A stretch of 64,000 bases of DNA, taken from the NCBI GenBank assembly GCA_947625555.1, contig CANQOT010000001.1, positions 1-64,000 on the forward strand, written 5' to 3'. Both the position numbers and the translations under genes were made by a program. This document shows positions 8,843 to 49,800 of the stretch, in pieces; position 1 is the stretch's first letter, and every line of letters starts with the position of its first letter. The notes beneath the pieces were generated by a model. The model was not told the DNA's origin. It ran no database searches and saw nothing but the letters and a program-made list of their open reading frames with translations. The stretch is from an uncultured Clostridia bacterium. GTDB lineage: Bacteria > Bacillota > Clostridia > Christensenellales > Borkfalkiaceae.

Positions 8843-8998
8843 AGGCCAACGCGTCATCCTGCCCCGCGCGCACTATTTTCTACTAAGCGCGGCACGAGCG
8901 CCAATGGCGCGAAGTAGGAGCGAAGCGACCGAAGGATCCCGAAGTACGCAGTCCGTACAAAAAAATAAATGATTATCTTGCGAAAAGAGGTGACTCGA

Positions 8999-14900: not shown

Positions 14901-17900
14901 TCAACGCGGGCGGCTACACCGCCACGGTCGCCTTCGCGGGAGGGGATACGGGCAGCTCCAACTACGCACTTCCCTCCGACTACACGCGGGAATTTACGAT
15001 GGCGAAGATGTCCGTCTCGGTCGTTTGGGACGGGACATACACCTACAACGGCACCAATCAAACAGCGGCCCTTCGAGCGCACTACCTGACGTTTGATAGG
15101 CAGTCTGCCGCGCTTACCGTTACGCTCAAAGACGCCAGCGAATTCAAGAATGCGGGCGATTACAGCGTGACCGCTGACTTCAAAGCGGATGACGGGCAGA
15201 GCGGCAACTACGAGCTCACCGATACGACGCACACCTATACCATGTCCCGCGCCAAGGTCACCGTTTCGGGGATCACGGCAATCGACAGGATCTACGACGG
15301 CACCACTTCCGTCAGCCTCTCCTTCAACGGTGTGAAGTTCGAGGGCCTTATCGATGGCGACGAGCTCACCCTTTCCGCCGTCGGCGAAATGAACGATAAG
15401 GACGCGGGCGAGGGGAAAGCGGTCACCGTTTCCGGCCTTTCTTTGAGCGGCAAGAGCCACCTCAACTACGAGCTCGCAAATGAGGAATATTCGGAGAGCG
15501 TGACCGTCAACATCACCCCGCGCACGATCTCTATCTCGGGGATCACCGCCAAAGACAAGACCTACGACGGGACGACGGCAGCCACCTTCGACATGAAGGG
15601 GCTTACATTCGAAAACCTTCTGCCCGCCGAAGAAGCCCGCTTTACGGGCGATGGCGCAGAAAAATACGTCACCGTCGTGGTGAAAGGCGCCTTCTCCGAT
15701 AAGAACGCGGGGGTGGGCAAGGTCATCACCGGCCTCACATTCTCCCTCGAAATCAACGAGGCGGGCCAAGCGGAGGGCTTCAAAGCGGAAAACTACACCA
15801 TTCTCACGACGGTGCAGGGCCTCACGGCGACCATTTCTCCCGCCGAAGTGACGGTAACAGGCGGCGTCGTCGCAGAGGAAAAAGTCTACAACGGCACGAC
15901 GGATGTGCAGCTTAATGGCGGCTCGCTCGTGTTCCAAGTCACGGGCAAGGAAGGGCCGGGCCTCTACGACGGCGATTCCCTCACCGTCACGGGTAGGGGA
16001 ACCTTCGATGATAAGAACGCGGGTAGCGGAAAGACTGTCAAAATCACAGAGCTTGTGCTTGGCGGCACTTCCGCCTCCAACTATACTTTGGCCGAGAGCG
16101 GGAACCAAGCCGAGACGACGGGCACCATCACCCAAAAGCCCGTTGCCGCGAACGAGATCGTTTGGCCGAAGCTCACCTTCACCTATTCCGCGCTCGATCA
16201 AAGGGACGCAATCCAACCCTATTTCGAGGGCGTAGCGGCCGATGGGCGCATCTACCTCGCCATCGTCATAGAAGGCGACAAGTTCACCGATGCGGCCACT
16301 TACACCGTTCGGGCGACGCTCAAAGGCGTAGAGGGCGGCGAAAATTATACATTCAACGCCGAGGATTATTCGCACCAATACACGATCGCCCCCTACACGG
16401 TCGAGATCGAGTGGACGGAGTGGAGCGAGGAACAAGCCACGTTCAACGGAGAGGAAAAGTCGGTCACGGCGACCTTCCAACCCCTCGAGAAGGACGCTGA
16501 CCTCGTCACGCTGACGGTAAAGATTACGAAGACGGGCACGGGGGAAGAAGTGGTCCTTCTCAACGCAGGGACCTACACCGCGACGGCCTCCTTCGGCGAT
16601 ACGTCGGGCGGCACGTCGAACTACACGTTGGATGAAACTTCCCTTACCCACACCTACATCATCCAAAAGGCCGAGTTCGTCATCGAGACGGACGAAGGCA
16701 AGACTTATACCTTTAACGGAACGGCCCAAGGCGATCCCATCACCGTCCAAGGCGTCGAAGGGGATAAGAACTTCCCCGAAGAGGTCACGATATCCTATCT
16801 TTCCAACTCGGGCAACCATAACGGCATCAATGCGGGCGTTTACGAGATCGAGTACCTCGTCCTCGGAACGGAGAACTACAAAGAGGCGCGCGGCACCTAT
16901 ACGTTCACCATCGAAAAAGCCGAGATTGTTGTCACGGTAGAGAGTAAGAGCTACGAGTATAACGGCGAAGCGCAGGGCAATGCGGCCGTCATCGGCGAAA
17001 CGCCCGATACGCATTACACGGTTGTATATACCTACAAATACACGCCGAACGTAGAGGGCCATAGCGAGGGCACGGTCACAGCGCCTCTATTCATCGAAGC
17101 GGGCCAATACGCGGTCACCGTCACCGTCTCGGGCTCCAACTACGTCACCAATGAGCAGCATTACACCATCACGATCGAGCGCGCCCAAACGGGGCACACC
17201 GTGCAAAGCGAGCTCCACTTCAACTATACCGGCGCACAGCAGACGGCGACCCTTTCCGATGCCGTCATCGGCGCGGCAAGCGAGCTCACCTATGCCCTCA
17301 AAGAGGGGTCAGTGCTTCCCGAGGGCGCATCGTTTGATGCCGCAAGCGGTACGTTCACCTTCAAGAACGTCGCCGAGGGCAACGGCGTCGTGTTTACGGT
17401 CACCGTCAACGCGGATAACAACCACGAGGCGGCGTCGGGCGATGTGAAGATCGTCGTGAACAAGGCGGCGGCCTCCCTCGATACGTCCCATATCACGGCG
17501 GAGTACACCTACACGGGAGAAGTGCTTGAACTCGACCTTACAGAAGAGGGCCTTCTCAACCACAGCGAGGGCGCCGCACTTTCCTATACCGTCGGGGAAG
17601 GCAAGACCATCAAGAATGCGGGCATTTATTCCGTCACGATCACCGCGGCGGCAACCGACAACTATTTGAATGCAGAGGCCACCGTCAGCATTACAGTCAA
17701 CAGGGCAACGTTCGATAAGGTGGAAGATCAGACCTTCGTCTACAACGGGACGCCGCAGGGCGATGCCATCGTCCTCAAACTCAACGGGAAGCCCGTAGAC
17801 GTCGCGGCGGAGAACATCACGATCCGCTATAACGGCTCCGAAACGCCTCCGCAATACTCCCTCGTCAATGCCAACGCCTTTGTCGTCAACTTCACGGCGG

Positions 17901-20900
17901 AGGGCGCCAACTTCGTGACGTACGAGGGCAGCTACACCATCACCATTACGCCCGGCACGCTCACCGTCTCCGCACCGACAAAAACAACGTACACCTATAA
18001 CGGCGCCCCCGTCGATGCTTCGGCCACCGTCGAGGCGATCGACAACAGCTACGAGCTCTCCTACGATGTGACCTATTCGCCTCTCGAAGGCGGGCACGAA
18101 GCGGGCACGATCGAAGGCGCACACTTCACCGAAGCGGGCGAATACAAGGTCACCGTGACCGTCTCGGGCAACAACTATCACAAGGCGACGTGTTCCTACA
18201 CCGTCACCATCGGCAAGGGGGAATACACCGTCGAAAACAGCGAGAATGCGACCTTCACCTACAACGGGGAGTTGCAGGGCGGCGAGGTACGCGTCACGAC
18301 GCTTACGGGCAGCGAACAGGAAGTCGTCTACACGGGCGCACACACTTTCCGAGATGTCTCCAACAACACCGTTCAATGGAGCGTCGCGGCGGATAACAAC
18401 CACAACGCCGCGAGCGGAAGCTATACCGTGACGATCGTCTGCAAACAGTTGACCGTCTCGGGCTATTCCGTCTCGGGCAAGATCTACGATAAGACCACTT
18501 CCGCAAACGTCGTCGGCGGCTTCCTGCAAGGGGTGTGCGGAGGCGACGGTGTCTCCTTCACCATTTCGGCCGCGTTCGAAGATGCAAATGCGGGCAATGC
18601 GAAGCCCGTCACCGTCACCATCGAGCTCACGAACGACGAGGCGGGTAACTACACCTTCGGCGAAGAGGGCGCAAAGCGCGTCACCAAGTTGACCGCCACC
18701 CTCACGGCGGATATCGACAGAGCGCTCCGCACGATCGATACCGAAGGCGTCCTGACGGAATACACCTATAACGGGCAGGAGCAGACGGTCGATCTTTCGA
18801 GCGTCACCTACACGGGCCGGGAAGAAGGGGGCGGCACGCTCACCCATACGAACAACACCTTCACGAACGTCGTCGAGGGCAACGGCCTCCTCATCGAGGT
18901 GCAAGTCAAGGGCGGCAAGAACTACCTCGACGCCGTCGCCTATATCACCCTCACCGTGACGCCTCAAACCCTCACCGCTACCCTCAAAGAGCGGACGAGG
19001 ACGTTCACCTACGACGGCACTCCTCACGGCGGCGAAGAGATCGTCACCGTCACGGGCGGCACCGTCTACGTTAAGGACGAAGGGCAGGTGTTCGCATACA
19101 TCGTCGACGGCGGCAGTCCCTACCTCGAAGTTCCCGCCTTTACCGCGGGCACGCACACCGTCGAAGTGCGGCCGCGCAACGAAAATTATCACGTCGACTT
19201 TGCGGACGGCAACAGCCAATACACCGTGCAGATCGAAGTCGCCGAAGTCGTGGTGCAACTCGTCGTCGATCCCTTGCTTCGCGGCAGGGCGCGTGCGGCC
19301 GACCTCGTCTATAACGGCGGCGACCATGCGAGCGGCTTCTTCGAAGATAACTTCCGCGTCACGCTGCGCGGCGAGCCCTACACCATCGACCAAAAGAACT
19401 ATCTCGTCACATGGCGTTCGGCCGAGGGCATCGTCGGGCTCAATGCCATCGACGCGGGCGACTACACGCTCGTCCTTTCCCTCCTCGGCGAGGCGGCGGA
19501 GAACGTGCGCTTCAAGGAGGACGCCCGCTACACCGTCGAGGGCACGACGCTCACGTGGAACGGTCCCACCCTGCACATCGAAAAGGCAGCCCTCACCGTC
19601 ACCGCCCCCGCGGATATCGAGACCTATTACGACGGCACCCTCTACGGCGGCGAGGCGAACGTGCAGGTCTTGGGCCTCGTTGCGGGCGACGAGGGCTACA
19701 CCCTCGAATACAGCTCCGACGGCGAGAACTTCTCCACCGAAAAGCCCGTCTTTATCAATGCGGGAAGGCACACCGTCCACTTCCGCATCGCGGCCCGCAA
19801 CTACACGGCCGAGGGCGGCAGCTATCTCATCAATATCAAGAAGGTGCACCTCACGCCCACGCTCAACGAGGGGAGCTATTCTTACCGCGGCTATGCCTAT
19901 TCGCCCTTCGACGTCTGGACGCTCAAAGCCGAACAGGGCCGCAACCTCCTCACGACGGACGATATCGCCGTGACCTACACCTACACCTCCGTCGCGGGCG
20001 TGGCGGGAAGTGCGACCTCCCTCCTCAACGCGGGCACCTATACGCTCGGCGTCGAACTCTCGTCGGAGAACGCCATCACGAACTACACCCTCGGCGAGGG
20101 CAAGCTCGTCATCACGATCGCACCCGCCGAGGTGGATATCTCCGCCCGGCGCGAGATCACCTACCGCGAGAGCGGCTACGAGGTCGGCGAGGTCGTGCGC
20201 TTCATTTCGCAGATCCCGACGACGGGCGCCTTTGTGCTCCGTCTCGAAGGGGCCGACCGCATCCTCGACGCGGGCGAATACACCGTCGTGGTCGAACCCG
20301 TGGGGGATGCCGCGAACAACTTCGCCTTCACGGCAGAGTCGATCGCGATCGTCGTCGATCCCGCCGAAGTCTATGTTTGGTCGGACGGGGATCTCACCCG
20401 CACCTACGACGGCAAGGACCATTTGAGCGAGGCGCGCGTCACCGTCACGCGGCGGGATAACAGCGTCGTCGTCGATCCTTCGCTCTACGACGTCGCCTAC
20501 TACATGCTCGTGGGCGGGGAGCGCGTTCTGACGGACGATATCGTCTCCGCGGGCGACTACAACGCCGTCGTCACCCTCAAAGATACCAGAAATTACAAGC
20601 TCACGGGTGCCATGAGCACGCGCATCGTCATCACGCGCGCGGTGTTCGGCCTCGTCGAAGGGTACGAGGACACCTACAACGGCGCCGCCGTCGATCCCGC
20701 CGTCCTCGTCGAAAGGGAAGAGGGCGCGCCCGAACCCGAGTACACCGTCAGCATCAAGCGCGACGGCAAGACGGTCGAAAGGATCTGCGATGCGGGCTTC
20801 TACACCGTCTACTTTACGGGCGGGCCGAACTTCCTCGCCTCGGTGCCCTTCGTCTATGTGACCATCGGGCAGAGGACGCTCACCGTCGGCGAAGTTCCCT

Positions 20901-21736
20901 TCAAGGAGACGACGCGCGTCTACGACGGCACGACGGACGTCACAGCCCTTCTCGCTTCGTCCACGGTGCTCGCAGACGGCGCCGCAGACGAAAAGGTGGA
21001 AGTTGCCGTTTCGGCCGCCCTCGCCTCCAAGGACGTCGGCGCACAGAGGGCCATCCTCACCTTTGCCATCGCCGATCCCAACTATATTTTAGATGAAGCG
21101 CGCGCGGCCGAGCTCTTCGGCTCCATTCTCATCACCGTGACGGCAAAGCCCGTGCAGGTGCTCTACAACGAGGATTCCGTGAAGAAGGGCGGGCCGTTCT
21201 CGGCGACTTCCAACGATTTTGTCCTCGGCGACGATGTCAAGCTCGTCTACACTTCGGATGATTCGGGCAACACGATCGTGGCCGAACTCTCCCTCGAAGG
21301 CGCAGACGCGGGCAACTACACCCTCACCGAGACCAAGGTCGTCATTCCGCTCCGCCTGCTCGAAAACAAGTGGATCGTGGAGTACTACCGCGCCGATTGG
21401 AAGGAGGGCAGAACGCCTTCCGAGGTCGTCGATGCGGTCGCGCAGTACGGCGGCGTCGCTTCCGTCAGGTACTACACCGACGAAGCCTGCACCACGGAGA
21501 TCTCCGAAGAGGAACTCAAAACGGCCGCGGCGGGCACCTATTACGCGAAGTACACCGTCGAGAGAGGGGACTACTACGAGGGCATGTTCGGCGTCTCCTC
21601 CTTCGAGATCTTAAAGGCCGATCCCGATATGGGCCTTCCGATCATTCTCCTCATCGTCTGCGCGGTGCTTCTCGCGACGCTCGTCACCGTCGTCGCAGTC
21701 ACCAAACGCAGAAAGCATAAAAAGAACATTCAATAA
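8999..21736 (+). CDS. Giant surface protein: signal peptide, beta-helix-like Gly-rich region, many MBG/YDG-type repeats, C-terminal TM anchor
   Basis: Start at MTKNMKKTRRYSVAALTMLL after AGAGGTG; GGGI/NNAA beta-helix-like repeats; YDG-type units (ITAKDKTYDGTTAATF, ITAIDRIYDGTTSVSL) and MBG-type units (TYTFNGTAQGDPI); C-term PIILLIVCAVLLATLVTVVAVTKRRKHKKNIQ. Confidence 0.9.
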   Translation: MTKNMKKTRRYSVAALTMLLSATFACGLAFSDRGGQGGSTLEAAAAELSVTKQVFGDGTTGNGGFTHEHVNDMVGKIINWKRVSGTTYSRTAGDIEDNTLSVARVTDGAPRIKYFASGKSAVGYYMVPDKGSKATISDSDYTQQITDASVTKYLKYDPTTKEGYFVVGNEGGGASNFEKASAWSAAIKQTYTNDSDVIKQGAGNYANVAVYNTVQLYVRVKMLEDWTATRGGKEYDLVENVPTGTSKANHYQQNADVTTFEVIEEQDEKGESKPKLQASGAIQGTEDGAGTQVNEHDPFTFGRLGIPTKSYVILDLNGKTIDRAMPDSGVARNVATGKTGATNNYTHSSVFNVGTYARFEVYDSTAKDNEPAGSGKITGGRTWEDTNGYNENNENKGGAIHLEVYSEVTLHSGSLTKNVAWLGGSFYGLTRSVFNLFDGAITQNYAGSMGGGTYCALDSHMVFNVYGGLIANNAAANQGGGLCGNGGTHITIYGGTVTGNAAREGGGIHVMQNSYVKFYNGNIYGNAATGAGGGVNLLGTAKGVYINGPARIAENFMVAKAKAKDSSTPQGSAGNFSNTADQQDFIYAHNIKTQDILDYKRVQSITLQDDSGKQMSRPDGSPYTINFEEASNLYLNTGRAKNDTTNNPGNLDYADIKVEGPLSVGGKNAEIYVSPASGQAGNRYGRIMRGFTQYGYDDNNNQRNTGKDDVDNWSGTGGGAGTWDHEPSGVDNYNYTAYLRDQDVSYYFKTDNGADLVEKQYDNGPWVEILDLTHSRTADVHWQYRTLKSGSPDENGDATWDWTNEWTDVQPEYTYNGKVNWLEGVRLIYNKFDQTNGSNYDQMRTYIVSLQYVDGKYQFQYTMTYYALKAGKTTSKDANDYDTSKPKDGTIASTAVGGYFDVSVEYFLQAGSSSEKTKTFTDDLVSKDAGTYTFAISQEAIGDGSGAMFSRSDIITQSSISFIVNRLGLTVTGVEITKTYDGKIDVTDDLNTAYTNGDINPTIAGGLLYEHRNAVSIVPAKDSVKTFSDIILDSPDVGTHISTKFPQLEVALQDNNGGDTISRNYTVAGDLSNITVIITPAVLQNGTEGHTGGGTPYWTLKGGVEGGIWSFNSEKNALLATYTGQPINPELEIHGLEAQTEKKADGSFTTRQDNVILEYQGTQTNANADKDGNLLKDKAAYTVTAKITTAYQGSNYVFEGGDTTFTFPFYLKQKELTVNEWTASGNIWKEHTATSGSYIYDGTIFTAASVEGNLTPTFTGLTEVDSAPSFTLALTAENSKTSHAENTYTVTVNAITDAPNYYLGNGGAFAVTIAKREVKVLVHELTDTYAGEKYLLDTTTGLKQGVQLADVFGTVDSNPNSTWQYADDTPNQFIGTDSSELYFYLAGTTEVPKAKPTAGEKFAVPGTYYLWCTFAEGKDLAGDYSVTFEKGESGGGDPQLTIEPATAEVISADWQLSNGFAADGYKVNITEEINANYSWMRFKGDVKYKENIDGKSFQVTYTLEPTAQQKQGTDYTVDGSGIYTVITVGTYTFTVTVEAPYHNTITHKLLVYISQEHVTVTLKEEDITFTYGGEGLLQSGNDISTWLLNLLFNTDHIESITGFTNHEMGQDEGQDGPASIAMEAVESLEQIIEKLRELVTLSFTGDNSALFSGAGYLKAGSYTVHIAFKGDTSGDTKNRTITFVNAANKIVVTPKTLTASDIIWVETGNGWSEEGGKLSHTYSGIASIALGNYPKVKEGGNAFTGDKFNERGISAFIEAQEEGAWVAHTGVCHVGTTYRIYISDSNPGGADGANYTFDPAALAKEFSIKPLAITLKLKNFSDVYGNTHPDFGQTLELINHFDYSGAKFAEGDNIGLLNLQLAYVDTITNATAVGHYAVKATWSNADYAVTFTDESGTAATGEADWWKLEDIFEITPREIEIVWEAEDSYTFNGIDQSGAVKAHYVDAVDGESTHALAVTFSGKGTQFLNAGGYTATVAFAGGDTGSSNYALPSDYTREFTMAKMSVSVVWDGTYTYNGTNQTAALRAHYLTFDRQSAALTVTLKDASEFKNAGDYSVTADFKADDGQSGNYELTDTTHTYTMSRAKVTVSGITAIDRIYDGTTSVSLSFNGVKFEGLIDGDELTLSAVGEMNDKDAGEGKAVTVSGLSLSGKSHLNYELANEEYSESVTVNITPRTISISGITAKDKTYDGTTAATFDMKGLTFENLLPAEEARFTGDGAEKYVTVVVKGAFSDKNAGVGKVITGLTFSLEINEAGQAEGFKAENYTILTTVQGLTATISPAEVTVTGGVVAEEKVYNGTTDVQLNGGSLVFQVTGKEGPGLYDGDSLTVTGRGTFDDKNAGSGKTVKITELVLGGTSASNYTLAESGNQAETTGTITQKPVAANEIVWPKLTFTYSALDQRDAIQPYFEGVAADGRIYLAIVIEGDKFTDAATYTVRATLKGVEGGENYTFNAEDYSHQYTIAPYTVEIEWTEWSEEQATFNGEEKSVTATFQPLEKDADLVTLTVKITKTGTGEEVVLLNAGTYTATASFGDTSGGTSNYTLDETSLTHTYIIQKAEFVIETDEGKTYTFNGTAQGDPITVQGVEGDKNFPEEVTISYLSNSGNHNGINAGVYEIEYLVLGTENYKEARGTYTFTIEKAEIVVTVESKSYEYNGEAQGNAAVIGETPDTHYTVVYTYKYTPNVEGHSEGTVTAPLFIEAGQYAVTVTVSGSNYVTNEQHYTITIERAQTGHTVQSELHFNYTGAQQTATLSDAVIGAASELTYALKEGSVLPEGASFDAASGTFTFKNVAEGNGVVFTVTVNADNNHEAASGDVKIVVNKAAASLDTSHITAEYTYTGEVLELDLTEEGLLNHSEGAALSYTVGEGKTIKNAGIYSVTITAAATDNYLNAEATVSITVNRATFDKVEDQTFVYNGTPQGDAIVLKLNGKPVDVAAENITIRYNGSETPPQYSLVNANAFVVNFTAEGANFVTYEGSYTITITPGTLTVSAPTKTTYTYNGAPVDASATVEAIDNSYELSYDVTYSPLEGGHEAGTIEGAHFTEAGEYKVTVTVSGNNYHKATCSYTVTIGKGEYTVENSENATFTYNGELQGGEVRVTTLTGSEQEVVYTGAHTFRDVSNNTVQWSVAADNNHNAASGSYTVTIVCKQLTVSGYSVSGKIYDKTTSANVVGGFLQGVCGGDGVSFTISAAFEDANAGNAKPVTVTIELTNDEAGNYTFGEEGAKRVTKLTATLTADIDRALRTIDTEGVLTEYTYNGQEQTVDLSSVTYTGREEGGGTLTHTNNTFTNVVEGNGLLIEVQVKGGKNYLDAVAYITLTVTPQTLTATLKERTRTFTYDGTPHGGEEIVTVTGGTVYVKDEGQVFAYIVDGGSPYLEVPAFTAGTHTVEVRPRNENYHVDFADGNSQYTVQIEVAEVVVQLVVDPLLRGRARAADLVYNGGDHASGFFEDNFRVTLRGEPYTIDQKNYLVTWRSAEGIVGLNAIDAGDYTLVLSLLGEAAENVRFKEDARYTVEGTTLTWNGPTLHIEKAALTVTAPADIETYYDGTLYGGEANVQVLGLVAGDEGYTLEYSSDGENFSTEKPVFINAGRHTVHFRIAARNYTAEGGSYLINIKKVHLTPTLNEGSYSYRGYAYSPFDVWTLKAEQGRNLLTTDDIAVTYTYTSVAGVAGSATSLLNAGTYTLGVELSSENAITNYTLGEGKLVITIAPAEVDISARREITYRESGYEVGEVVRFISQIPTTGAFVLRLEGADRILDAGEYTVVVEPVGDAANNFAFTAESIAIVVDPAEVYVWSDGDLTRTYDGKDHLSEARVTVTRRDNSVVVDPSLYDVAYYMLVGGERVLTDDIVSAGDYNAVVTLKDTRNYKLTGAMSTRIVITRAVFGLVEGYEDTYNGAAVDPAVLVEREEGAPEPEYTVSIKRDGKTVERICDAGFYTVYFTGGPNFLASVPFVYVTIGQRTLTVGEVPFKETTRVYDGTTDVTALLASSTVLADGAADEKVEVAVSAALASKDVGAQRAILTFAIADPNYILDEARAAELFGSILITVTAKPVQVLYNEDSVKKGGPFSATSNDFVLGDDVKLVYTSDDSGNTIVAELSLEGADAGNYTLTETKVVIPLRLLENKWIVEYYRADWKEGRTPSEVVDAVAQYGGVASVRYYTDEACTTEISEEELKTAAAGTYYAKYTVERGDYYEGMFGVSSFEILKADPDMGLPIILLIVCAVLLATLVTVVAVTKRRKHKKNIQ

Positions 21737-31525: not shown

Positions 31526-31585
31526 TGTTTGGCGATTTTCATAAAAAGTGTTGTAAAAGTTTGCGTTTCGTGGTAGAATAGAACA

Positions 31586-31672
31586 TGCGACACAAACGAA
31601 TACTGACAGAACAAAGATACAACGGGCATCGGTGTATCCTTATTCCTATGTTCTGTTAGGGTTTGTGTCGCA
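31586..31672. repeat. Long imperfect palindrome with 12-bp perfect terminal inverted repeats
   Basis: TGCGACACAAAC (31586-31597) / GTTTGTGTCGCA (31661-31672), inner GACAGAACA...GATAC pairing with GTATC...TGTTCTGTT. Confidence 0.75.
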
Positions 31673-31759
31673 ACAATTCGGGGATACTCGGAGCGGGCGC
31701 CTCGGATTGGGGCGTCCTTAATTTTTTGCCAGCAAAAAAATAAACAGGAGAAAAGAAAC

Positions 31760-33514
31760 ATGAAACACAAACTTTTACCCATTCTTTTGGCAGCCGTCGT
31801 GGCAATCTGCCTCTCGTCGGGCCTTGCCGCCTGCGCCCATACCCATACCTTTGCTACCGAGTGGTCGAAGGACGAATCGGGGCATTGGCATGCCGCCACC
31901 TGCGGACACGCCGAGGAGAAGGAAGACTTCACCGCCCATAACTATGAGGACGGCAAGTGCACGGAATGCAATTACGAGCATGCGAGCCACGCCTTCGTCT
32001 ATTCCAACAAGACGGAGACGGGGCACACGGGAACATGCTCGGTCTGAGGAAAGACCGTGACGGAGGCGCACAATTACGAAAACGGCGTCTGCGAAGATTG
32101 TGCGTACGAGCATGCGAGCCACGCCTTCGTCTATTCCAACAAGACGGAGACGGGGCACACGGGAACGTGCTCGGTCTGCGGAAAGACCGTGACAGAGGCG
32201 CACAATTACGAAAACGGCGTCTGCGAAGATTGCGCGTACGAACATGTAAACCACGCCTTTGAATATTCCAATAAGACGGAGACGGGGCACACGGGGACGT
32301 GTTCGGTGTGCGGAAAGGTCGTGACGGAGGCGCATACTTATGCAAACGGCGCTTGCGAAGATTGCGAGTACGAACATCTAAATCACGACTTTGGCGCATA
32401 TGAAAAGACGGAGAGCGGGCATTCGCAGACCTGTACCGTCTGCGGAAAGACCGTGATGGACACACATCATTATGCAAACGGTTTCTGCGAAGATTGTACG
32501 TATCAACATCAGGATCACATATGGGGCTTCGATTACACCTGCACCGTCTGCGGCGCGAAAAGACCGCTCTACACGGTGAGCGAGGACGGCACAAAAATCT
32601 ACTTTGGGGAATATCCGCAAACGGAAGTGACGGACGCAAACGACAGCGACAAGTCGCTCCGCAATAGTCTGAATATGGACGCGGGCGTCCCGTCGGCGGA
32701 AAATCGCGGCGAGTGGACGGATTACGGCTACTACATCGAGGGCGCCGTGCAGAGCTATATGTGGTATATTGACGTGGAGTATCAGGACAGCCGCTACCGC
32801 GGGGTGTACTTTACGAGTTACAGACCGTGTTATACGGCGGCCAGTTCTTCCACAGACAACAGCTATCAGGACGACAACGGGTACTATATCAACACGGCGT
32901 ATTGGTTCAAGTACGAGCCCATCGAATGGCGTATTTTGGAGGAAAAGGACGGGACGGCGCTGCTCATGGCGAACATCATCCTCGATAGCCAGCAGTATTA
33001 TCATACGGATTCGGGCACACGCACGGTAGGCGGCAAGACGGTGTATCCGAACAACTACAAGGAGAGCGACATCCGTGCGTGGCTCAATGGGACGTTCTAT
33101 GAGACGGCGTTCGATGAATACGCGCAAGAGATTATCGAGACGACGGCGGTGGATAACAGCGCGTCCACAACGGCATCGAGCTACAACCCCTATGCGTGCG
33201 AGAACACGCAGGATAAAGTGTTCTTGTTGAGCTATAAGGAAGCAGCTACAAGTTCATATGGGTTTAATCCGACCACACGCCAACTGAAGAGTACGGACTA
33301 TGCGAAGTCTCAGGGCGTAATTGTAGCCCCGGATATAGTCACGGATTTGCGCGGGAACGGCTGGTGGTGGCTTCGCTCGCCGAGTGGCTATGATAGCTAC
33401 GATGCCTACATTGTCTTTGGCGGGGGCAGCTTGGGCTGCGCGGGCAACGGAACGAATAATTATGTCTACTCTGCAGACGGCGGTGTTGTCCCCGTTTTGC
33501 GGATCCGCCTGTAA
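31760..33514 (+). pseudogene. Secreted His/Cys-module protein with DUF6273-like C-terminal domain, interrupted by in-frame TGA at 32045-32047
   Basis: Lipoprotein-like N-term MKHKLLPILLAAVVAICLSSGLAACAH; ORFs 31760-32047 and 32057-33514 share a frame; the interrupted codon is Cys (TGC) in the next repeat; C-term NGWWWLRSP...VVPVLRIRL. Confidence 0.75.
31976..32560 (+). repeat. 132-bp (44-aa) in-frame tandem repeats, four full units plus partial fifth
   Basis: Unit starts at 31976, 32108, 32240, 32372, 32504, exactly 132 nt apart; units 1 and 2 differ at about 4 positions. Confidence 0.9.
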
Positions 33515-33540
33515 GCGCCCCGAGGAAGATCTTTGTCCAT

Positions 33541-33658
33541 CTTGCCCACCCCTTGAGGGGTGGGTGTCGCCAAAGGCGACGGAAGGGGTGTTCCTCAACT
33601 CAAATGACACCCCCTCACCGCCTGCAGCGGAGCTCCCCCTCGAGGGGGAGCCAAGAGA
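33541..33658. repeat. Multi-hairpin intergenic repeat, copy 2
   Basis: CTTGCCCACCCCTTGAGGGGTGGGTGTC...GACACCCCCTCA...GAGCTCCCCCTCGAGGGGGAGCCAAGAGA. Confidence 0.8.
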
Positions 33659-33676
33659 TTATGGAATTTTCCATTC

Positions 33677-37806: not shown

Positions 37807-40800
37807 ATGCGTTATAAGAGCAAACCTGCGAAAAATTCGGGCGTCAGGAGCGGCCATTGGAGCGTGGCGATGAAGACCACGGCCGTCCTCGCGGCATTCG
37901 TTGCCGTGGGCGTCGGGGGAGGGAGCATCGTTGCGGCGCTCACCAAGACGGCCGAGCGCAACGCCGTCGACCTTTCCTACGGTTCCGTCTCAACGGCCGT
38001 GGAGGAAGGGGAGGTGTTCGTCGATGACGGAACGTACGACGCCGTCGATATCTTCGCCCGCCTCAACTGGCGATTTGCCCGCCAAAAAGAGTGGTACGGC
38101 GAGTATTCGGGCTATGTGAATACCGTCGTCACGCAGGACGTACATACATACAAATACTACAAGGACGGGATGTTGATCTCGGCCGATATCACCAAGAGTT
38201 CCCTCGTAAATGCGGCGCGGGAATTTTGCTATATAAAAGAGGGCGACCGCGTCCTTTGGAGGGAAGCGGCGGGCGGCTCTTCCACCTACGATAAACTCGA
38301 TACCCCGTGGCAGGAGGGCGAGCCCTACCGCAACATGACGATCTCGGGCGAGAACGGCTTCAAGGCCCTCAACGGCCTTCCCGCCTACGAGCTCAGCCCC
38401 TACGTCATCGAACCCGATACCGTGCTCTCTTCCACCGTCGAAGAGGCGGAGGACGGGCTCTACAAGGCGACCTTCGTCATGAACCCCGCGACGTGGAAGG
38501 ATGTCGATGAGAACGGCAACGAGATCGTCAAGGGCGCGAACGCCTACTATATCAACCAGATGATTTTCACGGGCGGCCTGCCCGAAGCGCCCGAGTTCAG
38601 CGCGCTCACCATCACCTATTATTTCGACGAAGATTGGATCACCTACAAGACTGTGGTCGAAGAAAATTACAGCGCCGCCTACGGTCCCATCAAGGCGCCC
38701 TGCAAGGGCGGCGGCACCACGACGTATTCCTACGAGCCCTACAATTCGACGGACAACGTCTATCCCGACGCCTACGACGAATACTTCCAATATTGGATCG
38801 ACGAGGAACCCGATACCGACTTCGACCGTCCCATCACCGCGCTCGACGCGCTCGCCGGGGCATTCGGCCCGCTGCTCGCCGAGCCCTCGACGCTCGCCCT
38901 CGACCTCGATATCAACGGGCAGAAGGCGGCGGGCACCGTCTTTGTCGATTTGAGCAAGACCGACCTTTCCGCCTTCGACGTCACCGCCATCGAAGCGCGC
39001 CTCGGCCTCGGGGCCCTCAACCTTTGGGTGGAGGGCGGCAAAGCCTACATCAACTACGGCGGGGTCAAGCTCTCGCTCGATCTCTCCGCCCTCATGGGTC
39101 TCTTCGGCTCGGCTTCGCCGCAGGCGGAAGGGGAGGAGAGCGGGGGGCTCAATACCGACGATCTCCTCGGCGCCCTCGCGAACGGCGCCTTCACCGCGGA
39201 GGACGGTAAGGCGGAACTTCACTCCGTATTGCCCCTTCTCGGCTACGAGATCCCCATTGATTTCTACTTCAACGTCGACGAGGAGAAGAACGTCACGCTC
39301 GATCGCGCAGCGGTTGCCGTCGACGCCGATCTTCTCTCCCTCGGCGCCGAGATCTCCTTCGGCGGAGAGGCCATCCCCGCCCTCGGCGAGGTGGAAAAGG
39401 CGGACTATGCCGAGCTCATGCCGCACATCCAAAGCCTCATCGACCTGTTCACTTCCGAAAATCTTCACGCCGCTCTCGATTACGAGGGCCACGGCATCAA
39501 GGTCGGGGGCGGCATCGATATCGCCCTTTCTCCCTTCTCCTTGAAGGGGGAGATCGCCCTTTCCGTCCCCGAATACGGCGCAGAAAAGAAGATCGCGCTC
39601 GCCTATGATGACGGCGAGGTCTACCTCGACCTCGGCGGCATCAAGGTCGCGGCAAATGCCGCCGACGCCGTCGCGCTCGTCGGCAAGTTCCTCGACCTCG
39701 GTTCTCTCGCGGAAGGCGGGCTTCCCTTCGATCTCGGCGAGATCGTTCAAACGCTCCTCTCGCCCGAATTTGCGCAGAACATCGTCTCTTCGGAAGAGGA
39801 GAGTAAGCTGCATTTGCTCCTTCGCGGGACGAAGATTCTGGAAGCCCTCGGCATCGACTTTGCCCTCGGCGACGTCTCGCTGCAAATGGGCGAAGAGACG
39901 CTTACGGCGGGCGTGCTCGGCCTGACAGCCACCCTTACAAAGGGCGACGGCTTCACCTTCACGCCCGAGGGTTACACCGAACTTATCCCTTACGTCGCCC
40001 GCATCGTCGAGCTGGCGAAGGGGGGCAACCTTACCGCCGAAGTCACCTACACGGGCGATACGCTCTCCGTGTCGGGCGAACTCGGCCTCGACCTTAAAGC
40101 TCTCGCCGCGAAGGCAGACCTTGCCCTTACCTACAAGGGCGCTACCAAGACGCTTTCGGTCGTCTATGCGGACGGCGCGCTCTACCTCACGGTGGACGGG
40201 CTTCGCATCAAGGCCGACGTTAAGGAAGCCATCGAACTCGTCAAGGAATATCTCGACGTCTCGTCGGGCGACGGCGATGCGCTTAAAATCGTTGCCGATA
40301 TCCTTTCCCTCGACTTTTCCACCCTCATCGAGCTCTCCCAAACGGGCGACGACCTCACCGTCGCCGTCGCGGGCACCGAACTTTTGCGCGCGCTCGGCCA
40401 CTCGTTCGACCTCGGCAGGGTCGAACTCACCGTCGGCAAAGAGGAGATCGTCCTCACCGCGGCGGGCGCCGTCGTCACCGTCAAGGCGGGCGCGCCCTTC
40501 ACCTATACGACGGAGGGCTTCTCCGAGATCGTCAAGTATGCGGGCACGCTCCTTGGGATCTACAAGAGCGGCTACCTCGACCTCGATCTGAACTACGCGA
40601 TCGGCGAACTCGCCATCACGGGCGAGGTCCATCTCGACCTCACGACATTCAACGTCTCCGCTTCGGTCACGCTCGCTTCGGGCAGGGCGTCCAAAACGGC
40701 GGAGATCCTGTATATGGGCGGCGAGATCTTCCTCGGCCTCGGCGAAATCCGTCTCAAAGTCAATGCGAAGGAGGCGGCCGCCCTGCTCGGCGGTCTCATC

Positions 40801-43800
40801 GACCTCGGCGCTTCGGGCGAGGAGATGGACGCGGTCGAAGCCCTGCTCTCGGCTGATTTCTCCACGCTCATTCCCGAACTTTGGGAATCGGACGGCGCCC
40901 TTCATATCACCGTCGCGAGCGGCAACCTGCTCTCGCTGTTCGGCCTCGATCTCGACCTCGGCGATCTTCGCCTTGCAGTGGACGGAGAGGGGGCGACGCT
41001 CAAACTCGGCAGGGCCGTCGTCACGGCCAAGGCGGGCGCGCCGTTTACGCCCGTCGCCGAGGGCTACCTCGACATCACGGATTATCTCGGCGCAGTCGCG
41101 GGCTTTGCAGAGGCAAAGGCCCTCACGCTCGACGTGGCATACTCGGGCGAAAAGATTTCGCTTGAAGGGGACATCGATATTTTGCTCGACGGCACGGCCG
41201 CACAGGGCGACCTCACCCTCACCTATACGGACGAGGAAGAGGGCGCTCAAACCGAGCATGCCGTCTATCTCCTCTGGACGAAGGGGGACGGTACCCTCTA
41301 TCTCTCCATCGACGGCGTGAAGGTCAAGGCGAACGTCTCGGATGCGATCTCGCTCATCAAGACGGTCGTCGGCTCGAAGAGCTCCGAAGGGCAGGCGGAA
41401 GGTGCGGGCATCTCCACCCTCGCGCTCACCGACGAGGAACTCACCGCGCTCGAAAAGCTGCTCTCCTTCGACCTCGGCGCATTCATCGACCTTGCCGAAC
41501 ACAGGACGGAGGAAGGGGGCACGCTCACCCTCACCGTGCGCGGTACGGAGCTTCTCTCCGCCCTCGGCGCCTCCTTCGACCTCGGCGACGTGGCCCTCTC
41601 GCTGGATACGGAAGGGCACATCGCACTCTCCGCCATCGGCGGCAAGCTCACCATCGGCGTCCGTGCGGGCGAGTCCTTCGAACAAGGCGACGTCGGGGAC
41701 TACATCGACATCGTCAAGTACGGCGAATACCTTGCAGGGCTCTTCTCCAAACGGACGTACAAGATCTCGGCCTCCTACGAGGTCGATGCGCTCAAAGTGC
41801 GCGCCGACGTCTCCTTCGATACCGTCGGGAAGATCGTCGTCGGCGACCTTATCCTTATCTATAAAGGGGCGGCGAAGGAGGCATCCTTCACCTACGAGGA
41901 CGGCTGGTTCTACCTCGACCTCGACGCCTACAAGATCAAGACAAAGACGGCGGGCGCCGTCGCCCTCATCGCGGGCTATCTCGGCCTCTCGGGAACCGAC
42001 GGGGTGAAATTCGAGAGCCTCGCCTCGGCGCTCGATACAAGCCTCGACGGCCTCCTCACCCTCCGCGAAACGGCGGAAGGCGAACAGCAGATCCTCACCG
42101 TCCTCATCGACGGCACCGCCCTCATGAAGGCGCTCGGCCTCTCCGTCGATCTCGGCAATGTGGATATCCGCGTTGCGGAGGACTACCTCTATGCCTCCCT
42201 CAAAGGCTTCGGTTGCGAAGTGACGGGCAGCGGCGCGGCGCTCGAAGGCCTCAAAGAAGAGGACAAGGCGGGCTTCACCGATCTTTCCGACTATCTCGAC
42301 GGTTTCGTGAACGTATTCAAACAGGACTATATCACCGTCGCCGTCCGCTACGACGAAAAGGGCGTGAAGGTCGTGGGGGATCTCTACATCGACGTGAAGA
42401 ACAAGCAGGCGCGGGCCGACCTCACCCTCACCTTGAACGGCATGGAATATGTGTTCGGCGTCGTGTACGAAAAGGGCGGCATGCTCTACGTCGACCTCGA
42501 CGGGGCGAAGATCAAGGCGGATACGCAGGAGATCCTCGACCTTATCAAAGGCCTCTTCACGAAGAAGGGGGAGAGCGCGCGCAACAGGAAGCTGCGTGCC
42601 TCTGCCGATGCGCCCGCACAGATCGCCCTCTCCGAGGAACAGAAGAGCAAGCTCCTCGGCATTCTCGAGACCGTCCTTTCCCTCGATCTCGACAACTACT
42701 TCATCCTTTCCGAGAGCGGGGACGATACCCTCACGCTCACGGTGAGGGGGACGGAGCTCCTCTCCAAACTTCTCAAAAAGGATATCGCCCTCGGCGACGT
42801 TGAAGTCAAAGTCGAAAAGACGGGCGGCATCTCGCTCTCCGTCCTCGGCGCGACCCTCACCGCCACCGGCAGCGCCGAAGGCTTCGACCTCTTCAAAGAC
42901 GGCGACAAAGCACAAAACTATGCCGACATTCTCGACTACGTCGGCTATCTCACCGACCTCTTCAAGGCGGAAGCGCTCACCCTCACGATCGACTCTCTCG
43001 AAGTCACAGCGGGCACAACGTCGATCAATGTGGAGGGTACGGTCGACATCAAGACGGACGGCACGCTCGCGGGCGGCACGCTCACCCTCACCGTGGGCGG
43101 TAAGTCCTTGACGGCCACCCTCTATTACGAGAAGGCGGACGGCGAAAATATCCTCTACATCGGCGTCGCAGGCATCAAAGTCAAGGCGAGCATCGAGGAT
43201 ATCAAGGCCCTCGTCGATAAGATCAAGAACAAGGAGCCCGCAGCGGCGGCATTCTTCACCGTCGCGGCGACCGTCGCGGAAGGCAGGCTCTTCGGTATCT
43301 TCGAAGAGGACGGTGTATTGCAACTCGCCGTCGCCGGCGGAAAGCTCGGGAAGCTCTTCGGCTCCGACCTCGGGCTCGACGAGATTGGCCTCGAAATTGC
43401 GGAGGGCAGGCTGGGCCTTTGCCTCTCGGGCGAAAAGTTCTCGCTCGACGCAACGCTCAAAGGGGCGGACTCCGTCGCCTTCGATCCGCTTGAAAACAAG
43501 GACGGCTATATCGACATCGTGAAGTACGTCGACTTCGCCGTCGACCTCTTCCGCGCAGACGCCTTCGAGCTCGGGCTCGGCTTTACGAAGGGCGCCTTCA
43601 CCCTCACGGGAAGCGCCTCCTTCGCGCCTCAGTCCAAGGTTGCATCGGGCCAATTCACCATCACCTATCAGACGACGTCCAAGCACGCGTCCTTTGCCTA
43701 CGTCGACGGCACGGCCTATGTTGCTCTCGACGGCTCCAACGGCCCGTTGAAGTTCAAGGCCAAATCGGCGGCGGCCGTGGGTCTGCTTGCGGCCTACTTC

Positions 43801-46800
43801 GGCTTCTCGGGCGCAGACGGCGAGACGGACAACACCTTCGAAGATCTCTTCCAAGATCTGTTCGGGAACTTCGATTCCCTCTTCGAACTCGCCGAGAACG
43901 CCGAAAAAGACGTTCTTACCCTCCTTGTCGACGGCACGCAGCTCCTCGAAAAGCTCAAAATTTCGCTCGGCAACTTCGAGCTCGGCGACATCGGCGTCAT
44001 GCTCGGCAAGAACAGCCTCACGCTGCATGTGCTCAATGCCCAACTCACGCTCGGCGGCACCGATGCGGCGCCCGTCCTTCCCTCCGCGGAGGAACTCGCG
44101 ACCTACACCGACCTTTCCGATTACGTCGATACCTTTGCCGACCTTGCCGCGAGCGACTGCCTCGAAATCGCGCTTTCCTACCGATCGGACGACGGTACGC
44201 TCACGCTTACGGGCACGCTGTCCATCGACGTCAGGAACAAGTTCGCCCGCGCCGACCTCACCGTCGCGAAGGGGGAGACGACGATCGACCTCGGCATCGT
44301 CTACACCGAAGGGGGCATGCTCTACATCGACCTCGACGGCGCGAAGATCAAGGCCAACGTCCGCGATGCGGTCGATTATGTCAAGGAACTCGTCGGCGGA
44401 AACGCGAAGGGCAGGGCGCGCACGGTGCGCAATGCCCCCAAGGCCATCCTTTCCGACGAGCAAAAGAGCAAGCTCTCCGACCTTCTCACGAAGCTCTTCA
44501 CGCTCGAACTTGACGACTTCTTCACCCTTTCGGAAGAAAAAGGCGCCCTTTCCCTCCTCATCGACGGCACGGGGCTCCTCAACAAACTTCTCAATAAGAA
44601 TATCGAACTCGGTTCGGTCACGCTTTCCGTCGCAAAGAGCGTCTATGGCGAGGACGGCGCCCTCACGGCGTGCGGCTCCGTGACGCTCAAAGCTTTGGGT
44701 GCAGAGATCGTCTTGCGCCGCGGCGCGGCCTTTGTCGCCTTCCCCGACGGGGACAAAGAAGAGGACTATACCGACATTTTGCAATACGTCAAGTGGGCGG
44801 CGGCCATCTTCGCACAGAACGAAAAGCACATCGACCTCACGCTCGCGGCGGGCGAACTTTCCGTCGGCCTCGGGCTCGACGTCATCAAGGGCAACGCCTT
44901 CGTGAAGGGCGTCATCACCCTTTCCTACCGCGGCAGCAGCAAGGATTTTGCCTTTGTCTACGATAAGCAGGGCGGCGAGAGCGGCGACGAGGGCTGGATC
45001 TATCTCGACCTCGACGGCGTGCAGATCAAGGCAAATACCGACGACATTATGCAGCTTTTGAAGAGCCTCTTCTCCAATCTCGCCGGCAAGGAAGCGGAGG
45101 GCCCCGAAAAGATCGCCCTCGGCTATGCGGCGGCCGCCATTCTCGAAGTCGACGCCATCTCCTTCGAGAGCTTCGATACCTTCTCGCTCACCGAGGAGGA
45201 GGGCGTTCTCACCCTCGCCGTGAGCGGCGAAAAACTCATGTCTCTCCTCGGCGAAAAGCTCCGCTCCCTCCTCGACGGGAAGTTCTCGCTCGCAAGCGTG
45301 GGCGTCTCCGTCTCCGAGACACTCTTCTCGGTGGAAGCGGACGCGACCCTCTCGGGCGACAGCGTCACCCTTTCCGTCGGCATCTCGAAGGGCGAAACGT
45401 TCGAGATCGGCGAAGAGGAGAGGAAGTCGCTAACAAGCTACATCGACGTGTTCAAATACGGCGCGATGGTGAAACGTCTCTTCACCCAATCGACGACGTT
45501 GCAGGCGGAGATCTCCGCCACCCTCGGCGGGAAGGAACTCGGCCTCACGCTCAAATTCAACAAGGACTTCACGATGGCGCAGGGGACGCTCCAATACGGT
45601 TCCATCGACCTCGACCTCATGTATGTGCTCGAAGACCGCGAAGGGGCGGAGGGCGAAAAGGACGTCCTCATCTATGTGAAGGTGGGCGATAAGGTCAAGC
45701 TCATGGCCAACATTTCCGAGGTCATCCGCCTCGTGAAGGATGCCAAGGAGAAGAAGGGCCGCGCAATGCCTGCGGCCATCGCCCTCACGCCCAAGCAGGA
45801 GACCATGCTCGAAAAGTTCCTTGCCCTCGATCTCGGCGAAGTGATAAAGCTCACCGAAAAACTCGCTGCGGCAGGGGAGGGCGATTCCCTCGCCGTCACC
45901 GTCAATTCTCGCAAACTTCTCGATGTCTTTGGGGCCTCGTTCGACCTCGGCACGATCGAAGTCACCATCGAAGAGGGCGAACTTATCATCGCCCTTCCCG
46001 ATAAGGCCAACCTTTCGGTCACCATCTACGGCACCACGCGCGCCGTCGCGCTCGAAAAGCCCGCGGAAGGCGACTATCACGACATCACGCCCATTGTGAA
46101 GCGCGTGTTCGATCTCATCGAGGCGCAGGGCATCGAATTTTCGGGCGAACTCGCGCTCGGCGAAACCAAGCTGACCGTCGAACAGGGCATCGTCACATGG
46201 AAAACGGGCGAAGATAAGAAGTTCTACCTCAAAGGTTCTCTCGGCGATTTTGTCCTCGAACTTTCCATCGTCGGCGAGAACGCACAGCTCAAACTCGGCA
46301 ATTTCGGCATTGAGTTCGCCTTCTCGGATATCGGCGACCTCATCAATGCCGTCAAGGGCCTCATCGCCCGCGTGAAGGGCACCCTCTCCACCGTCAAGGC
46401 GAACGTCACGGGCACGGCCAAGCGCGAAGAGCTCATCGGGACGCTCCAAGGCATCGTCGATGTGCTCAACAACTTCATCGATTTCCTCAAAGGCGGCGAG
46501 GCCGCCGCAAGCGCCGCGGCTTCCGCCAAGGCGGCGTACGAGATGGGCGGCATGGCGGTCGTCCCCGCGGCCTACAAGCCCGAAGGGGAGGCAAAAGAGC
46601 TCCTTTTGAGCTTTGTCCTCGGCAAGATCACGCTCGAGATCTTCGATGAAACGGGGTACGAGAACCGCGGCTTCCTCGGCCTCGGGCTCACCCTCGCATC
46701 CGACGCGTTCTCCGTCTCGGCCGTCGTCGATACGGCAGTGTTCACGGGCGAGATCCCCGAACTGACGGGCGAGTTTTACAAACTTCATGATTTCATCGAG

Positions 46801-49800
46801 ATCCTCGGCTATGCGGGCGATGCCGTCGCCCTCGTCGCGGAGCCCAAGCTCACCGCAAAGGTGGGCGGGAACGTCCTTTCGACCAACCTCTCCATGTATC
46901 CCGACGACGGGCTCGTCTACGACATCTCGGGCGAAATGGAATACTTTTCGGGCGACTTGGACGACAAATTCCCCATCCGTCTCGATATGGACGAGAACGT
47001 CATCGAAGTGAATACCGATCTCTTCGTGCACTTCAAGCTGCTCATCGCGGCGGGCACGCAAAAGACGGAAGTCAACGGTGAGACCGTCGATACCACGCCC
47101 AAGAATATCTATCTCGATATCTTTATCACCGACTGCGATCTGAATGGGGATTCGAACGGCGAGCTCGACTTCTTCGTTACCATCTCCCAAGTCGGAGAGG
47201 GGAAGACCGGCTACGACCCGCTCAAACTCTACGCCCCCGCAAAGGAGATCCTCACCATTCTCTCGGGCGCCGCTTCCATTCTCGGCATGGACAGCGTGAC
47301 CTATGTCAACGAGTATCTCATCAAGCCCCTTCTCGATCCCGATATGGTCGCCCGCCTCAAAGGGTTGGGCGTGAGCCTCATCCCCACCATCCTCGATATG
47401 CTCTTGAAGGACGACGGGGCGGCGGACGGCGTTGCGGCCATTGCGAACGGCGTCGAGATCCCCGCGGATGCTTTCGGGTTCGGCTTCGGCAACGTGCAGC
47501 TTCGCTTCAAGTCGGAAGGGGAGGGCGATTCCACCTACCTCGCCTCGCTCGGCGTGACGACCTCCAAGGAAGAGGCGGCGGGCGAAAAGACGTATACCAA
47601 GACGACCGACCTCGCATTCTCCTTCTCGCGCACCGTGACGGAAGACAGAAAGCCCGCAGATCTTACGGGATTCTTCGATATCGAGGGCGTCGACGAGCTC
47701 ATTCTCGCCCTCGGCAGAACGGCGACCCATATGGCGACGCCCGACGAAGTGATCGCGGGCATCGCCGAGGAAGGGGAGTACGTCCGCAACGATGTGTTCT
47801 TCATCGACGGGAAGTTGCACCTCGACCTCTCGATCATCGGCATCAATCTCGAGACCATCGAGATCAATGTAGACGGCCTCACCGTCAACTTCGATGCCAA
47901 TAACAAGATCAGCCTGAATGCGAAGCTCTCCTATCAGGGCGTCCACAATGCTCTGGCGGGGCTTGTCGGAAGCAGCGATATCATTTTGGGCGATACGACG
48001 CTCGACCTCACCATCAAGGGCGACATGATGTATCTGCGCCGCACGCAAAAGACCCACTTCGACGGAAGTACGGAGAAGGATCTCACGGTGCCCGAAGTCA
48101 TCTACCGCGCCTTCCCGCTCAAAAACTTCATGAAGGACACCCAGACCATGATGAACCATCTGTGCTTCATGTTCAATTTGAGCGAAGCGCTCGTGACCCG
48201 CATCATGGGCATGGTCGGCACGGGCGGCTCGACCCCCGCGGCGCAACCCACCGACCTCGGCGGCTTCCTCGATCGTTATATTACGGGGTGCACTTACGAG
48301 CCTCATGCGCCCAAAGACGGCCTTTCCAACCTCATCTATACCCTCGTTCTGAACGGCGCGGGGCTCACGAACAGCGATACCTTCGATGATATCACCGTCA
48401 AGCTCGGCGTGGAGAGAGGGGTGCTCCGCAGCATCGATATCCCGCAGTTCTCTATCGCGAGCGTTGTGCATATCAATGCGAATTTGCGGCTCCGCAACCC
48501 CGAATATGTATGGGACGACGGAAGCTACGATACGACGGAGAGCATCGCCGACGTTCTCGAACAGGCGATGGCGAACAAACTCAAATCGGTCGATTGGCTC
48601 GAAACGGCCTACCTCGAAGGGCAGCTCGCGAACGTCACATATATGCTCGGCGACCAGGAGATCGGGCACCAGCAGATCGTGTTCGACCCCACCACCAAGG
48701 AGCTGTATGCCAACTTCTCCTACCCGTCCATCAAGAACTTCCTCGACAAGAACCCCGAGTATGCACAGGACGGCTATACCTATGAATGGGAGAGGTACGA
48801 CCCCGCGAACTTCAAGTCGGAAATGACCCTATATGCAAAGCCCAAGGCCAATGTCTACGATCTGATCTTCATCATCGAGCAGGCGGACGTCGAAAAGTAT
48901 CGCGTCACCGAGGAAGAGCTCGAAGAGGCGGGCTATTCGTGGAACGATGAGTACAACGCATACGTCCATATCTATCACTGGACGTACAATCCCGAAAACT
49001 ACATCGCTCTTCCGTACGTGACGACGGTCGCGGGGCGCACCATCGGCTTCTTGTGTCCGAACGGCAATCTCCACAACGAAGATCACCGCGGGCTCGACTT
49101 CTACGACCAACCTATCGTCAAATACAAGGCGGTTTGGGACTATATCGATTATACCGTGACCTTCGAGCTCGGCAACGGGCAGCCTTCTATAAAACAGACG
49201 GGGCACTATGGCGATACGGTGAACTATCCCGATAACCCCGCCCGCGAAGGCTATGATTTCAACGGCTGGGATAAGACGATAGGCACAATCGTGGGCAACG
49301 ATACCGTCAAGGCGACGTGGACCCCTTGCACCTACGAGGTCAAGCTCGTCAGCGAATATCCCATCACATGGCCGGGTTTGGAATTTGTCGAAGAGAATGG
49401 AAAGTACGTCGCGACGATCACGTTCACGTATGATAGCGACGTCGAGCTTCCCAAGAACATCGAATATGATTCCGAGAGCGCGGGCACGGTCATTCTCAAA
49501 GGCTTCTCAAAGGACGGCGTGCTCTACTCCGAGTATCTGCCCAACGTCACGGGCGCGGCGACCTTTACCGCAGTCTGGGATGAACGCGGCTTTAAGATCG
49601 AGTTCACCGACGGGGACGGCAACGTCTATGCGACCCGCTATAAGCGCGCGGGCGAGAGCTTCACGCAAAGCGAGCTTCCCGATCTTGGCAAGTTGCGCCG
49701 CAATGGCTACACCGCCGAATGGAACATCGATATCAATTCCTTTAAGGCGAGCGACGATTGCACGGTTTCCGTCAAGTACACGGGCATCACCTACTATATC

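Follow-up and report, generated by a model that had tools for sequence, protein, structure and literature searches.

An in-frame stop codon in a repeat-containing lipoprotein gene of an uncultured Clostridia bacterium, and a conserved leader RNA, likely an attenuator, in front of it

The stretch of DNA analysed here, called the window below, comprises 64,000 nucleotides from the genome of an uncultured Clostridia bacterium. Near its middle lies a forward-strand reading frame, 31760-33514, of 585 codons with the terminal TAA counted in, which is open except for a single internal stop, a TGA at codon 96. The encoded protein is a predicted surface lipoprotein, recognised by motif: a signal with lipobox LAAC leads to an N-terminal cysteine, Cys25 (MKHKLLPILLAAVVAICLSSGLAAC). 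A divergent first CxxC unit is followed by four zinc-ribbon-like CxxC units of 44 residues each, and a DUF6273 domain near the C terminus matches its profile (PF19789) with 85.2 bits against a curated cut-off of 23.5. DUF6273 domains of phage proteins have been modelled as C-type lectin folds (PMC10743442), and a surface-binding role for the gene product would fit such a fold. The gene is one of a multigene family that encodes predicted surface lipoproteins. Its closest named relatives are metagenome bins that carry the name ‘Lapin’; they represent uncultured Clostridia, probably of the rabbit gut. Upstream of the gene, between a promoter and the ribosome-binding site, is a structured leader RNA. 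The coordinates of these features are collected in Table 1.

Table 1. Features of the interrupted gene and its leader, in window coordinates
Feature	Position	Strand	Basis or remark
Promoter TTGTAA-17-TAGAAT, with TG before the second hexamer	31551..31579	+	Consensus scan; same -35/-10 pattern before other leader copies
Leader RNA (models R1/R2)	31580..31727	+	R2 match, 147.5 bits
P1 outer helix, 31586-31596 with 31662-31672	31586..31672	+	97.5% of cells paired; both-side changes in 8/11 pairs
P2 helix, 31603-31613 with 31649-31659	31603..31659	+	Both-side changes in 7/7 modelled pairs
P2b apical hairpin GAUACA/UGUAUC, conserved loop ACGGGCAUCGG	31616..31638	+	97% of cells paired
P3, proposed antiterminator, 31674-31683 with 31700-31709	31674..31709	+	95-100% of sequences paired, per pair
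P4 predicted terminator hairpin (31695-31717) and U-tract	31695..31727	+	Terminator scan; 94.0% of cells paired
Shine-Dalgarno AGGAG	31746..31750	+	Sequence
5' frame up to the TGA	31760..32047	+	95 aa, from the lipoprotein signal through the divergent first CxxC unit into unit 1
Repeat unit 1, carries the TGA	31973..32104	+	Repeat finder and unit alignment
In-frame TGA	32045..32047	+	Sequence and translation
Possible restart site: GAGG, 7 nt, GTG 32057	32046..32059	+	Putative, from sequence
Remainder of frame after the GTG	32057..33514	+	485 aa
Repeat unit 2	32105..32236	+	Unit alignment
Repeat unit 3	32237..32368	+	Unit alignment
Repeat unit 4	32369..32500	+	Unit alignment; divergent
DUF6273 domain	32948..33424	+	Pfam PF19789, E 6.1e-24

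Elsewhere in the window there are two giant open frames on the forward strand, 8969-21736 (4255 aa, with YDG repeats in Pfam) and 37807-52008 (4733 aa, with one List_Bact_rpt match). Directly after the gene, at 33526-33670, is a strongly palindromic GC-rich repeat whose Rfam matches are at chance level only.

The repeat finder TRF reports a tandem array at 31973-32377 with 3.1 copies of a 132-nt unit, 90% matches and a score of 635; with the divergent fourth unit included, the array has 4.0 copies and extends to 32496. The TGA is in the first unit, and the other three units encode Cys at that position, including the TGC at 32177-32179 in unit 2 to which the first-pass annotation had pointed. 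That annotation had also put the differences between units 1 and 2 at about four, and the exact count is 4 of 132 (32035, 32047, 32062 and 32101), so that the units are 97% identical, with no difference in the first 62 nt. Each of the four differences falls at a third codon position; besides the TGA/TGC difference, there are three synonymous ones. As 84 of the 396 possible single changes are synonymous, three out of three would be expected without selection with P ~0.01 (0.04 if only transitions are considered). Thus, the two units appear to have diverged under protein constraint, and the stop to have come late. Close full-length relatives align without the extra unit of this gene, and unit number differs between family members; the duplication that gave units 1 and 2 therefore seems to be of recent origin and specific to this lineage. 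Another family member, a 914-aa frame (L068), contains two identical copies of a 132-nt stretch at a lag of 147 nt, and no stop.

The TGA itself is present in the assembly as originally described, in an otherwise open frame of 584 codons, and the remainder of the frame has no further lesion. It looks like a recent event, and three origins are compatible with the data: a nonsense mutation, a variant of this strain, or a base error. Error in the consensus of a short-read metagenome assembly would be in keeping with the source, a 41-contig draft genome whose named relatives are metagenome bins, and with a site within a near-identical repeat in a frame that is otherwise intact. However, exact repeats between units reach no more than ~62 nt, which reads of the usual length should resolve, and the base that makes the TGA differs from that in every other unit, so it cannot arise from mixing units. 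We consider an assembly error unlikely, while giving it appreciable weight, and infer a mutation or strain variant instead. The TGA could also be one allele of a mixed population.

As assembled, the gene would yield a lipoprotein stub of 95 aa, perhaps together with some untargeted product of 485 aa. For the latter, the GTG at 32057 noted in the first-pass annotation is indeed in the same frame, and a protein started there would have no signal peptide, as that annotation had foreseen. The single base that creates the TGA also creates the GAGG seven nt upstream of this GTG, and restart there or readthrough could leave some product. This spacing and the 485 intact downstream codons are what one would expect if the gene had been split functionally to give a cytosolic form, but no comparable split occurs among the 58 matches listed in 31 congeneric genomes, and a CxxC/DUF6273 protein without a signal would be in the wrong location; we regard a functional split as very improbable. 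Reading of the TGA as selenocysteine or another residue was discarded and has next to no probability. The codon does occupy the Cys position of a CxxC motif; however, SelB is absent from this genome and from 100 congeners (101 genomes of the genus), no tRNA-Sec scores over the family cut-off, the candidates being ordinary tRNAs, and TGA serves as the normal terminator of 9 of the 24 long frames picked in the window.

The first-pass annotation had suggested that the stop makes this a reversible ON/OFF surface gene. Part of that suggestion stands: the gene is of surface type, as its lipobox indicates, it is interrupted, and the 62 identical nucleotides at the start of units 1 and 2 make them alike enough to recombine. 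The word ‘reversible’ is what we would withdraw. In phase variation of this kind, recombination with the near-identical unit 2 would remove or convert unit 1, and the population would be a mixture of ON and OFF cells; the similarity of the two units and the variable unit number in the family agree with such a process. Against it, loss or conversion of the unit with the TGA would leave no template for return, making the step one-way; the unit is 44 codons long and keeps the frame, so a change in unit number by itself switches nothing; and a single allele is seen. Furthermore, none of the 58 matches listed in the 31 congeneric genomes has an internal stop, and the paralogues in the same genome are all open. 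Phase variation by way of the TGA is therefore improbable in our judgement, although we rate it above a functional split. The stop looks instead like an unremarkable disruption, of recent date, in a single copy of a repeated surface protein. Control of expression more plausibly sits in the conserved leader RNA upstream, on which the first-pass annotation was silent, than in the TGA.

The 150 nt before the gene fold with -60.1 kcal/mol, a z-score of -6.05 relative to shuffled sequence. In an alignment of 63 leader copies (A4), which was fitted to the model and so favours the structure somewhat, 97.0% of cells form standard pairs, compared with 36-49% when the partners are slid by 1-3 columns; the double changes are also visible in the raw sequences. 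Compensatory changes on both sides occur in 30 of 34 pairs, and 0 of 500 shuffles reach any of the measures. The sequence of P2 is rewritten among copies with its pairing retained. P3 has 74 both-side changes and P4 has 49, the latter in 9 of 10 pairs. Both helices thus covary; they share 31700-31704 and are mutually exclusive. For RNA ending at the 3' strand of P3, the minimum-energy structure contains P3 in 60 of 62 copies, and for the full-length RNA it contains P4 in 52 of 62. This exchange of P3 for P4 in folding gives the leader the anatomy of a transcription attenuator with termination as the default.

Two further elements were considered and set aside. An additional helix P5 (31634-31641 with 31680-31687), which would form in place of P2b and P3, has 93.3% of cells paired but double changes in only 3 pairs, a measure on which 44 of 500 shuffles equal it; it never appears in the minimum-energy folds and was left as suggestive. 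A leader peptide (ATG 31587, frame of 24 codons) was rejected, as this start is missing from other copies, which show single-base length differences in the core. In the copy in the window, 31718-31735 contains an extra A in the U-tract and, directly behind the tract, GCCAGC where 31 of the 63 copies have GCCCGC; these alterations may reflect relaxed constraint on this gene.

Genome-wide counts of the leader are matches from covariance model searches. With model R1, the leader is found in 86 of 103 congeneric genomes; this genome has 13 copies and one congener has 15. A sample of the order yields it in 44 of 297 genomes and 20 of 125 genera, and a sample of 399 genomes across the phylum in only two, one of them being this genome. 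Leader copies in front of relatives of the gene have ~79-96% nucleotide identity, whereas identity between the downstream proteins is mostly 50-70%; the leader is thus more conserved than the protein. The Rfam 15 covariance models gave no family match to the leader or to its near and distant copies, and we found no description of it in a literature comparison that left aside the candidate list of a 2021 microbiome RNA survey (PMC8040213). That the leader is a conserved RNA, of a family absent from Rfam 15, is strongly supported by comparison of its sequences.

With so many copies, one may ask if the leader is a MITE-like mobile palindrome instead of a regulatory RNA, as it is near-palindromic, gives weak antisense matches and occurs 13 times in the genome. 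Covariation and position led us to reject this reading, and we attach hardly any probability to it: stems of quite different sequence keep their pairing by double changes, P3 and P4 covary as well and lie outside the palindrome, and the copies have a promoter on one side and a ribosome-binding site on the other. The sample showed no scatter of copies at random positions, flanked by target duplications and lacking a downstream gene.

The genes behind the leader are largely of one kind. In congeneric copies, the gene mostly starts some 20-35 nt past the end of the model, and a rule-based search finds a lipobox in 40 of 56 downstream frames. Ten downstream proteins were scanned against Pfam: five have LRR_5 of BspA type and three have InlB-type repeats, with both in one protein; there is one weak zinc-ribbon match, and two proteins have no Pfam match. 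Overall, the leader mostly precedes lipoproteins with LRR_5, InlB-type or DUF6273 domains. From the lipobox and the surface domains downstream, it follows that each genome carries a group of surface-protein genes distinguished by this leader. A minority of the copies stand before proteins that have no lipobox, which weighs against this picture. At four loci (L176, L203, L214 and L218), the leader precedes zinc-ribbon proteins without a signal peptide (e.g. MKHTCTQCGTEFEGNFCPNCGKG) and not lipoproteins; at three others (L141, L142 and L202), leader and start codon are separated by an inserted repeat (TGTTGAGCGGAGCGGCATTGCC...).

Taken together, we favour an explanation in which the TGA is a recent, unprogrammed change confined to a single unit of a tandem duplication that is itself young, and the evolved control element is an attenuating leader RNA; with some reservation, we believe this account to be the right one. 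Transcription would start just before the leader, P1, P2 and P2b would fold, and P3 would form first as an antiterminator. Unless something stabilises P3, the overlapping P4 would take over, and transcription would stop before the gene. For this scheme to hold, P4 has to terminate transcription in the cell and the P1/P2 domain has to respond to a signal. The leader likely attenuates transcription, and the timing of production of such surface proteins is probably under its control. It is possibly a riboswitch, and may instead be a protein-binding attenuator or some other sensor. We come close to favouring, but stop short of it, the fuller proposal that the leader is a new class of riboswitch or another signal-sensing attenuator that coordinates some ten or more surface-protein genes per genome. 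If this were true, one signal would set the adhesin-like surface in a large uncultured gut lineage, and if the input were a gut metabolite or a signal from the host, the leader would offer a handle on how that surface is set in these bacteria. The conserved core of the leader can be tested in vitro.

Several known systems can be compared with this locus. Phase-variable surface genes with repeats share with it the surface gene, the internal tandem repeat and the interrupted frame; here, however, the stop arises by substitution and not by a frameshift from repeat number, the unit length keeps the frame, reversal is one-way and no such variation was seen among the relatives. Like other DUF6273 proteins, including the phage tentaclins (PMC10743442), the gene product has a C-terminal DUF6273 domain, to which it adds a lipoprotein signal and CxxC repeats. 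The domains of BspA-type LRR_5 and InlB-type surface proteins occur in other genes associated with the leader, whereas the gene in the window has none. The leader itself resembles the transcription-attenuating riboswitches and leaders of Firmicutes: it is a 5' leader directly after the promoter, with a conserved folded domain, overlapping antiterminator and terminator helices, and a U-tract before the gene. It differs from them in having no Rfam 15 match and many copies per genome, and, whereas most riboswitches are tied to metabolism or transport, this leader precedes surface lipoproteins.
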